From Erysipelothrix sp. (GTDB taxonomy: Bacteria > Bacillota_I > Bacilli_A > Erysipelotrichales > Erysipelotrichaceae), in contig DUUI01000006.1 in NCBI GenBank assembly GCA_012841625.1, forward strand, positions 1 through 52,795: a stretch of DNA of 52,795 nt. The letters are read 5' to 3'. The translations under genes were made by a program, and so were the position numbers. The notes below the pieces were generated by a model. The model was not told where the DNA came from and ran no database searches. It saw only the letters and a list, made by a program, of their open reading frames with translations. Of this stretch, positions 19,607 to 22,241 are shown in pieces; position 1 is the first letter of the stretch, and the number at the start of each line of letters is the position of its first letter.

Positions 19607-20407
19607 TTAATAACTTGCCTCAACAGCACCCTTATACTTTTCAGCAATGAATTCTCTAATCGCATCAGTTTGAAGCACATCAATTAATGCTTTCGTCTTT
19701 TCAGAGTCTTTGTCAGACTCTCTAACAGCTACAACATTCGCAAATGTTTCTGCACCAACTGAATCCTTACTCTCAAAAGCAACCACATCATCAGCAGTCA
19801 AACCATCTTGTAAAGCAAAGTTACCATTAATAACAGAGAACGCAACATCATCAATTGACTTCGCAAGTTGGGCAGCATCAAGCTCAATGATATCTAAGTT
19901 TAAAGGATTCTCAATAATATCAAGTTTAGTCGCATTTAACCCTGCCTCTTCATTAAGGGTAATAAGACCTTCTTGTTCTAATAAAGCTAAAGCACGAGCT
20001 TCATTTGTTGTATCATTAGGGACAGAGATTTTATCACCAGACTCTAATTCTGATAATTCGCTCTTAGACCCACGATAAATCCCAAATGGTTCATAGTGAA
20101 TCTTACCCACAGAAACATTGGTTAAGTTATGCTCTTCATTGAAAAATTCAAGATATGGACCGTGTTGGAAATAGTTAGCATCTAAGTCTTTAGCATCTAA
20201 AGCTAGATTTGGTTGTACATAATCTGTATACTCAACTATTTCTAGTTCATATCCTTTTTCTTTTAAGGCATCTCGAGCTTCTTCTAAAATTTCTGCATGC
20301 GGCACTATAGATGCCCCGACAACAATTTTATCTGGATCTGATGGTTCACTACCACATCCTATTAATATTAAACTTACTAATGCAATTGCTACAATTTTTC
20401 TAATCAT
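19607..20407 (-). CDS. metQ: Methionine ABC transporter substrate-binding lipoprotein
   Basis: 266 residues of the NlpA/MetQ family. A signal peptide with lipobox is followed by the mature protein (MIRKIVAIALVSLILIGCG, Cys18 lipidated). Family motifs are IVVGASIVPHAEILEEA, QPNLALDAKDLDANYFQH, GIYRGSKSELSEL, ISVPNDTTNEARALALLEQEGLITL and DVAFSVINGNFAL. It captures methionine outside the cell for MetNI. The frame extends upstream to 20473, but the ribosome binding site (AGAAGG) and signal-peptide logic favour the ATG at 20407. It is last gene of metNIQ. Confidence 0.93.
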   Translation of the reverse strand: MIRKIVAIALVSLILIGCGSEPSDPDKIVVGASIVPHAEILEEARDALKEKGYELEIVEYTDYVQPNLALDAKDLDANYFQHGPYLEFFNEEHNLTNVSVGKIHYEPFGIYRGSKSELSELESGDKISVPNDTTNEARALALLEQEGLITLNEEAGLNATKLDIIENPLNLDIIELDAAQLAKSIDDVAFSVINGNFALQDGLTADDVVAFESKDSVGAETFANVVAVRESDKDSEKTKALIDVLQTDAIREFIAEKYKGAVEASY

Positions 20408-20423
20408 TTTCTTTACCATCCTT

Positions 20424-21068
20424 CTATTTTTTATGATTAAGTCGTTGTGATAAACGATTGCCAATAAATTCAATAATTTGAACTAATACAACAAGTCCAA
20501 TAACAGCAATCAACATGATATCTTGACGTGGTCGATAATACCCATAAGATATCGCCAACATACCTAAACCTCCTGCGCCAGTAAACCCAGCCATCGCACC
20601 ATATCCAAGAATCGTCACCATTGCGACTGCCATGTTTTGAATCAACAATGGCCATGACTCTACTAAAATAACTTCTTTTAAGATTTGAAAAGGACTCGCT
20701 CCTAAAGACTGTGCCATTTCAATTAAGTTCTGATCAACTTCTGAAAAAACATTCTCAAACAGTCTTCCCACAAATGGAATAGCTGCTAATGCCAGCGGCA
20801 CAATCATCGCTTTAACACCAATTGATGAGCCTACTAATGAGCGTGTATAAGGCATTAATACGACCAACAAAATAACAAATGGAACTGAACGTATTAAATT
20901 TATAACAACATCCAAAATTCGATACAAGGTTAAGTTTTCCTTGAGCCCCCCTTTTTTAATAAACGTTAATAATACTCCCAACAAGCCACCGATAACAAAC
21001 GCAATTAAGCTGGACAACAAAGTCATGATAATCGTATTACCAGTTTCTTTTATAAAAACATCAATCAT
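20424..21068 (-). CDS. metI: Methionine ABC transporter permease
   Basis: 214 residues with five or so membrane helices, the normal size for MetI. The conserved coupling loop with its EAA-type motif (EMAQSLGASPFQILKEVILVESWP) and the C-terminal MAGFTGAGGLGMLAISYGYYRP are diagnostic. It forms the membrane channel with MetN ATPases and receives substrate from MetQ. Its start overlaps the metN stop by 4 bases (ATGA), and metQ follows after 16 bases. Confidence 0.95.
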   Translation of the reverse strand: MIDVFIKETGNTIIMTLLSSLIAFVIGGLLGVLLTFIKKGGLKENLTLYRILDVVINLIRSVPFVILLVVLMPYTRSLVGSSIGVKAMIVPLALAAIPFVGRLFENVFSEVDQNLIEMAQSLGASPFQILKEVILVESWPLLIQNMAVAMVTILGYGAMAGFTGAGGLGMLAISYGYYRPRQDIMLIAVIGLVVLVQIIEFIGNRLSQRLNHKK

Positions 21069-22039
21069 AATTTGCCCTCCACTTGATATGTAATATTTCG
21101 TCCATCTAAGAAATCTAATAGTTCTTGCGATAAACTAGGAACCTGAATTAACATTTGTCCATACACTAATTCTTCAACTTCTTGGGTATTAGCCCACAAG
21201 ATATTAACCGCTTGTTCAGTCTGCAACACAAGTTCAGAAATAATTGGTTCAAATGCGTTATATCCATCAAAGATCAGCCTCAACTGTGGTTTATCTTTGT
21301 TACTAAAGTCAGTTGTATCTTGAACAAATAAGAGTTCTTTAGTCTTAGGATGAGTAGGATGTGTAAAGATATCTTTCACCCGCCCTGTTTCAACCAATTT
21401 ACCATTATCTAAAACAGCCATTTTATGGCAAACTTGTTGAATAACCTTCATTTCATGAGTAATCATTACAATCGTCAAATTTAACTTCTTGTGTAAGTCT
21501 TTAAGTAAATCTAAAATTGATTGAGTACTTATTGGATCTAATGAAGATGTTGCCTCATCACATAAGAGAATATCCACATCATTAATTAGGGCTCTAGCAA
21601 TGGCCACTCTTTGTTTTTGTCCCCCGGATAATTGTGCTGGATATGCATCAGCTTTATCCTCTAATTGAACAAGCCTCAACATTTCTAACCCTTTTTCTTT
21701 TCTCTCTGCTTTACTAACCCCTTGAAGCTTTAAAGGCAAGGTGACATTATCTAGAACATCTTTTTGATTAATTAAGTTGAAATGCTGAAAAATCATACCA
21801 ATTGTCTGTCTTAATTTATTCAACTCTCTTTCTTTAAGTAAAGATAGAGATAAACCATTGACATCAACACGCCCTTCATCAGGTAAGATTAATCCATTAA
21901 TTAACCGAATAAGTGTCGATTTACCAGCTCCACTCATACCAATCACACCAAAGAAATCATTCTTTTTAATGGTAAGATTAATATTCTCTAAAGCAATAAC
22001 CTCATCAAAATGTTTACTCACATTATTAAACTCAATCAT
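21065..22039 (-). CDS. metN: Methionine ABC transporter ATP-binding protein
   Basis: 324 residues. The nucleotide-binding domain has Walker A GMSGAGKSTLIRL, signature LSGGQKQRVAIARAL, Walker B ILLCDEATSSLDP and switch His in MITHEMKVI. The last 80 residues form the regulatory NIL domain, which in known MetN proteins binds methionine and inhibits transport. It is first structural gene of metNIQ, with an AGAGGGGAG site, and lies just after an intrinsic terminator preceded by a Met-rich leader ORF. Expression is therefore probably set by attenuation as well as feedback on the protein. Confidence 0.95.
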   Translation of the reverse strand: MIEFNNVSKHFDEVIALENINLTIKKNDFFGVIGMSGAGKSTLIRLINGLILPDEGRVDVNGLSLSLLKERELNKLRQTIGMIFQHFNLINQKDVLDNVTLPLKLQGVSKAERKEKGLEMLRLVQLEDKADAYPAQLSGGQKQRVAIARALINDVDILLCDEATSSLDPISTQSILDLLKDLHKKLNLTIVMITHEMKVIQQVCHKMAVLDNGKLVETGRVKDIFTHPTHPKTKELLFVQDTTDFSNKDKPQLRLIFDGYNAFEPIISELVLQTEQAVNILWANTQEVEELVYGQMLIQVPSLSQELLDFLDGRNITYQVEGKL

Positions 22040-22059: not shown

Positions 22060-22086
22060 AAAAAAACAGGAAGGAACACTTCCTGC
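22060..22086 (-). terminator. Attenuator-type terminator before metN
   Basis: On the minus strand GCAGGAAG (from 22086 to 22079), loop TGTTC, CTTCCTG (from 22073 to 22067), then seven T. It stands between the Met leader ORF and metN, so it must be read through for metNIQ to be expressed. Confidence 0.88.
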
Positions 22087-22115
22087 TTCAATAATATCAA
22101 CTAAAAAAGATGACG

Positions 22116-22184
22116 CTACCTACAAGAGATGTCCCCATGATTAATTGAATTACGCATCATCATCATAACTGAAGTTTTAAACAT
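22116..22184 (-). CDS. Methionine-rich leader peptide (putative attenuator of metNIQ)
   Basis: A 22-codon ORF starting MFKTSVMMMMRNSIN and ending in TAG at 22116-22118, with a good GAAAGGAGAACCCCA ribosome binding site. Codons 7-10 are four consecutive ATG. It lies between a consensus promoter and an intrinsic terminator ahead of the methionine transporter genes. The Met-codon segment GATGATGC (22154-22161) is complementary to GCGTCATC (22109-22116, one G-U), which begins at the leader stop codon. A ribosome finishing the ORF would cover that second segment, while one stalled at the Met run would free it. This is the layout of amino-acid leader-peptide attenuation. The peptide itself probably has no other function. 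Confidence 0.82.
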   Translation of the reverse strand: MFKTSVMMMMRNSINHGDISCR

Positions 22185-22212
22185 TGGGGTTCTCCTTTCG
22201 CTAACTGCAAGT

Positions 22213-22241
22213 ATCATAGCACCACCATTTTCATAAGTCAA
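22213..22241 (-). promoter_or_regulatory. Promoter of the metNIQ leader
   Basis: -35 TTGACT (22236-22241), 17-base spacer ending TGC, extended -10 TATGAT (22213-22218). It predicts a start near 22206 and a 5' leader of about 165 bases. No S-box or T-box sequence is present in that leader. Confidence 0.75.

Follow-up and report, generated by a model that had tools for sequence, protein, structure and literature searches.

Known systems and the position of this locus

Attenuation of transcription through translation of a leader peptide is classically known for Trp, His, Leu, Ile, Val, Phe and Thr. To our knowledge methionine is absent from this list, a gap that may reflect the additional role of Met-tRNA in initiating every peptide. 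The T-box is a structured RNA that binds tRNA directly, without an ORF, so that uncharged tRNA controls transcription termination. Leader-peptide attenuators have also been described in Bacillota, namely the His leader peptides before hisS and hisZ in bacilli, which stand where other species use T-boxes (PMC2965389), and the leucine-rich ilv attenuator reported for branched-chain synthesis in Staphylococcus aureus (PMC5794164). For methionine itself, a full-text literature search that covered subscription journals little returned only a weak, terminator-less proposal and one suggestion. The proposal is metL of Streptomyces lividans, a Met-containing leader peptide of 29 residues encoded ahead of metNIQ. 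It has two separate Met codons in its interior, a leaderless start and no recognisable terminator; termination was called unclear by the authors, and an antiterminator was not described (PMC8079986). The suggestion concerns a candidate uORF of fthC in Streptococcus, for which a Met response via the initiator tRNA was put forward, acting by attenuation of translation through the initiation rate, with no Met run described (PMC11109978). A Met-specific leader attenuator with an identified antiterminator was not found in Bacillota in the same search.

The locus studied here lies in a stretch of 52,795 nucleotides from Erysipelothrix sp. (contig DUUI01000006.1), which is referred to as the window. 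Its metNIQ operon is preceded by a leader that we interpret, at a probability of roughly 0.86, as a ribosome-mediated transcription attenuator that would sense charged Met-tRNA and control metNIQ. Like the trp, his and leu attenuators of Proteobacteria, this putative device has a leader ORF with a codon run for the sensed amino acid, an antiterminator and a terminator that exclude each other, and a protector that forms in the absence of translation; unlike them, it would sense Met, its target is an importer and its host belongs to Bacillota, its antiterminator strand is located within the ORF close to the stop, and the protector also holds the leader Shine-Dalgarno (SD) sequence. With the hisS/hisZ leaders and the ilv leader, it would share the status of a Bacillota leader-peptide attenuator, a likeness by description, and it differs from them in amino acid and genes. 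Streptomyces metL is likewise a Met-containing leader before metNIQ, whereas the window adds a four-Met run, an SD, a terminator and an antiterminator; the fthC uORF resembles it in the proposed Met response, but is translational. The Met T-boxes before metN in the same family serve the same gene through termination control, but they act without an ORF, and none precedes the window metN. A Met leader-peptide attenuator would be of a known mechanistic kind, and it appears, as far as the searched papers show, to be new in amino acid and lineage.

Organization of the leader and its operon

All elements of the leader lie on the minus strand and were read directly from the sequence, where promoter, 22-codon ORF with ATG at codons 7-10, TAG, terminator and metNIQ were found exactly as the first-pass annotation had placed them. 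The promoter is of the sigma-A type (TTGACT, 17 nt, TATGAT, with an extended -10 TG; 22213-22241) and matches at 10/12 positions; the promoter scan of the region gave 3 promoter-like matches against 2.2 in shuffles, such that this match alone is not significant, and similar boxes can be read in the corresponding position in front of the leaders of four relatives (G001, G049, G005 and G064). The leader ORF (MFKTSVMMMMRNSINHGDISCR; 22116-22184) is preceded by the SD AGGAG (22192-22196), begins with ATG at 22184 and runs for 22 codons to the TAG at 22118-22116. Its four consecutive Met codons, 7-10 (22155-22166), constitute the proposed stall site and sensor, the run specifying the same amino acid that the downstream genes handle. 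When the intergenic region was shuffled 20,000 times with its dinucleotides preserved, no shuffle contained an SD-preceded ORF of 12-40 codons with four consecutive internal Met codons, and one contained such an ORF with three. Between the leader ORF and metN sits an intrinsic terminator with an 11-bp stem, a 5-nt loop and a U tract (22063-22089), the single terminator-like site of the region, where 0.1 would be expected.

The operon downstream encodes a metNIQ methionine ABC transporter on the minus strand: metN (21065-22039, ATG at 22039), an ABC ATPase with a C-terminal NIL domain; metI, the permease (20424-21068); and metQ, the lipoprotein (19607-20416, start approximate). All three assignments scored above the Pfam cut-offs, and the top NCBIfam matches were MetN, MetI and MetQ, respectively, yet all of these fell under the curated cut-offs. 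A T-box leader of 72.8 bits, under the Rfam cut-off, was observed farther along the minus strand before hisS-aspS (19553-19372), with GGTGGTACCACG readable.

Conservation of the Met-run leader

The first-pass annotation had proposed a comparison of leaders upstream of metN in relatives, and in this comparison the Met-run ORF recurred in six further genomes, four of the same family and two of another family of the class. The seven leader-bearing metN genes represent five genera and two families, and share the order of an SD-preceded leader with a Met run, an intrinsic terminator and metN; the Mets and the architecture are retained across the seven, while most other residues differ. In the congener G001, the leader (MKLNRTMMMMRMFNKQWGLLVG) again has 22 codons with Met at 7-10, followed by TAGCGTCATC, a terminator and metN, the MetN being 57% identical to that of the window. 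Reading of the regions upstream of other family metN genes gave the leaders of G049 (MVKSVMMMMSNNTKQWVLAASNSTTH) and G005 (MRNAVNFKMMMRMLGSRTLL), and a covariance model of three leaders strongly matched a further one directly 5' of metN in G064 (MKQMAMMMMWNSLNHEVLDAS; E 5e-6), which on inspection had the architecture and pairing anticipated. In the other family, the leader of G621 (MASFSVNKMMVMMMMCMMMNRAFSIS), with nine internal Mets before metN, was the fourth-ranked row of a class-wide sequence model; it is to be noted that this match was low-scoring and stood among many chance matches, its architecture and pairing fitting expectation once inspected. Its congener G445 has a leader with eight internal Mets upstream of metN (MNKYSLKSVRMMDMMMHMMMCSFSVVHK). 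Two side observations concern the relatives: a KQW-L stretch is common to the G001 and G049 peptides and is encoded where the antiterminator strand would form (L082, L111), and the G001 metN has an in-frame TAA within its Walker A motif (GAGK*TLIR; L082, around 1540), which is either a sequencing error or a sign of a damaged gene.

The wider searches delimit this distribution. The window genome (G000; 1.37 Mb, 85 contigs) belongs to a family of at least 60 genera, and across 273 family genomes the pattern ATGATGCG..GCGTCATC was found in metN leaders only in the window and G001, the rest looking like chance. The signal of an SD-ATG-Met3 pattern was swamped by ordinary genes in 316 genomes, and the class-wide model, run over 395 genomes, gave mostly chance matches, G621 being the only other metN leader among the matches fetched. 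In the family of G621, leaders were found in two of seven genomes, and a third MetN-like match in the order shows a T-box-like sequence by eye. No comparable leader was found at the 80 loci of the closest MetN relatives elsewhere.

A predicted antiterminator within the leader ORF

The first-pass annotation had sought the antiterminator after the stop codon, in the segment comprising GCGTCATC and CUUUU. The sequestering strand is instead provided by the last part of the ORF itself, downstream of the Met codons and ahead of the TAG: GGGGACAUCUCUUGU (22122-22136, minus strand) pairs at 14 of 15 positions with GCAGGAAGUGUUCCU (22072-22086, minus strand), which comprises most of the terminator 5' arm, the loop and the first bases of the 3' arm. 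The pairing of CUUUU with GGAAG is ruled out as the antiterminator, a much longer pairing being present (22136-22122 with 22086-22072). Covarying stems, another check proposed earlier, are indeed present: the G001 helix has 13 of 14 pairs and the same single C.A mismatch as the window, with four pairs changed on both sides. Corresponding helices were found in G049 (11/13 pairs, register shifted by one) and in G005 (10 bp without a mismatch); the ORF 3' part of G064 pairs with its terminator arm over about ten bases, and in G621 twelve bases just after the stop pair with the arm.

The ORF 3' part of each leader was tested against its own terminator arm by comparing duplex energy with that of dinucleotide shuffles of the ORF part. 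A first version gave p values of 0.0012, 0.0050, 0.0016 and 0.0002 for four leaders, and a uniform rule gave 0.0017, 0.0102, 0.0197, 0.0019 and 0.0045 for five; when the segment was extended 15 nt beyond the stop, p was 0.002-0.017 in six of the seven. The uniform test gave no significant antiterminator in G445 (p 0.53). A hairpin further downstream in this genome, UUAAUUGUUUUAAU with AUUGAAAUCAGUUGG, may be its antiterminator (L318). Each leader's own arm, when compared with the arms of the other leaders, ranked first in 4/4 rows of an earlier table of four leaders, and first in three and second in four of seven rows under the uniform definition. Fisher combination of the pairing p values gives about 1e-7, a figure that overstates the evidence, since the leaders are related, making the p values non-independent, and the segments were chosen after inspecting the folds.

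The first-pass annotation had also noted a pairing of the Met codons with a segment that starts at the stop codon. This pairing exists, GATGATGC (22161-22154) forming 8 bp, including one G-U, with GCGTCATC (22116-22109), and it is identical in the window and G001, but it is weak in G049 and only partial in G005, because of which we regard the stem as accessory at most. The segment itself (GCGUCAUC; 22109-22116, minus strand), the partner of Met codons 22161-22154, falls within the apical portion of the antiterminator hairpin; it is unchanged in G001, and its Met-codon pairing is not retained in G049.

Ribosome position and the predicted choice of fold

Alternative folds had likewise been suggested as a check, and their outcome was divided: equilibrium folding of the full window leader gave the terminator every time, and the antiterminator appeared only when folding was restricted to the RNA 3' of a stalled ribosome or to transcripts that end in the terminator loop. 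For the energetics, the ribosome was assumed to cover at most 12 nt downstream of the first base of the A-site codon. With a stall at the last Met, the antiterminator was more stable than the terminator in the window (-22.3 vs -19.4 kcal/mol), G049 (-22.9 vs -20.0), G064 (-24.9 vs -22.9) and G005 (-32.8 vs -18.1), and the two were nearly equal in G001 (-21.3 vs -21.5); in the stalled states of G621 the terminator fold was slightly more stable. With a stall at the first Met, the terminator of the window was ahead by 2.7 kcal/mol (-25.0 vs -22.3), and antitermination must therefore be kinetic or use the later Met codons. With the ribosome at the stop, each of the five leaders folded had its antiterminator strand either under the ribosome or 5' of it. 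By sequence and folding, the antiterminator thus excludes the terminator and depends on the position of the ribosome, with the exception that G445 had no significant pairing.

On ribosome-free RNA, the terminator fold is the more stable one in the window (-40.4 vs -31.9), as also in G001, G049 and G064, because the ORF 3' part pairs with the SD region, which would act as a protector. In the window the protector 5' strand is the leader SD region, AGGAGA/CCCCA (22185-22196, minus strand), and the 3' strand (22124-22137, minus strand) overlaps the antiterminator 5' strand; the pairing has an energy of -15.5 kcal/mol and a mononucleotide-shuffle p of 0.0065, with corresponding p values of 0.0020 in G001 and 0.0055 in G049. 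The same test fails in G005 (p 0.20). Ribosome-free RNA of this leader favours the antiterminator by default, the reverse of the other leaders tested, and the G005 MetN also branches apart (L117). The protector interleaves with the Met-codon/GCGTCATC stem, and the idea may be entertained that the two form a pseudoknot in the ribosome-free state.

Taken as an attenuator, the leader would operate as follows. When Met is ample, the ribosome would reach the TAG and cover most of the ORF 3' end (22136-22122), the terminator would form, and transcription would end near 22060. Under a shortage of Met-tRNA, the ribosome would stall within the Met run and leave the ORF 3' end free to pair with the nascent terminator 5' arm, and transcription would proceed into metNIQ. 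On a leader without a ribosome, the protector would hold the ORF segment, so that no antiterminator forms and termination is the default. The elements, their conservation and their mutually exclusive pairings can be read in the sequences themselves; we infer the stalling of the ribosome, the direction of regulation and the charging of Met-tRNA as the signal. Of the trp/his-type attenuation that the first-pass annotation had envisaged, ribosome-mediated sensing at the Met codons gains strong support from the conservation and the covarying antiterminators in relatives, while the location it gave for the antiterminator does not hold.

Any stall upstream of the ORF 3' end would yield identical folding results, and the leader ORF could accordingly stall without sensing Met, through generally slow translation or ribosome-polymerase coupling; nonetheless, Met runs recur before methionine-importer genes in seven genomes, which makes this alternative very unlikely.

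T-boxes, riboswitches and the MetN lineage

The expectation of the first-pass annotation that Bacillota would usually employ T-boxes or SAM riboswitches for such genes agrees with the family at large, since most of its other metN genes carry T-boxes. T-box matches above the Rfam cut-off precede several of these genes, or metQ upstream of them; of 93 further metN regions, about 61 by a count made by eye have the T-box sequence motif upstream, and the specifier, readable in ten examples, is ATG in the context GAANATGG. The window genome has 11 T-box (RF00230) matches, none of them at metN, where no Rfam match for a Stem I, specifier loop or T-box motif was found. Weak S-box-like sequences, below cut-off, lie just before the gene read as metK in the window genome (L299, 28.8 bits) and in G001 (L298, 35.2 bits). 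When 38 MetN proteins were placed in a tree, six of the seven encoded behind a Met-run leader clustered (96/88), and the cluster also took in one MetN for which the upstream contig is missing; G005 MetN adjoins this cluster without firm support, and the T-box-associated MetNs, with a few others, form a separate part of the tree. The leader therefore belongs mostly to one MetN lineage, and is not a replacement of the T-box on the same gene.

Small pseudoknotted SAM riboswitches exist, and the SD/ORF stem and the Met-codon/post-stop stem do interleave in a pseudoknot-like manner, such that the leader might be a riboswitch for SAM or Met, with the two stems as an H-type pseudoknot and the ORF incidental. 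This reading is highly improbable: no aptamer model of the S-box or other Rfam SAM classes matched the leader, no Rfam family reached its cut-off there and the best low-threshold matches were unrelated, and the Met-codon stem is weak in G049 and partial in G005, whereas all seven leaders retain the SD, the in-frame run of Met codons and the stop. A function of the peptide as a small protein, or a chance origin of the arrangement, is hardly credible, for although repeat slippage could produce four Met in a row and G001 and G049 have the KQW-L stretch in common, the non-Met residues are mostly not conserved, the RNA pairings survive base changes, the leader is present in relatives, and the shuffles never produced such an ORF.

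Biological meaning

A more specific reading, which we hold only tentatively and consider rather doubtful, is that the attenuator represents a Met-specific class of Bacillota in which the antiterminator strand is held by the leader SD until a ribosome loads, with a two-phase response. Such a response would be expected because the start of translation also consumes Met-tRNA; if this holds, the operon would be on at moderate Met shortage, through stalling at the Met run, and off once initiation fails. The conflict between initiator and elongator Met-tRNA becomes directly testable in this leader. Overall, a Met-run leader that is conserved and has covarying antiterminators would close the Met gap among attenuators, and would place leader-peptide control alongside the T-boxes that serve other metN genes of the same family.
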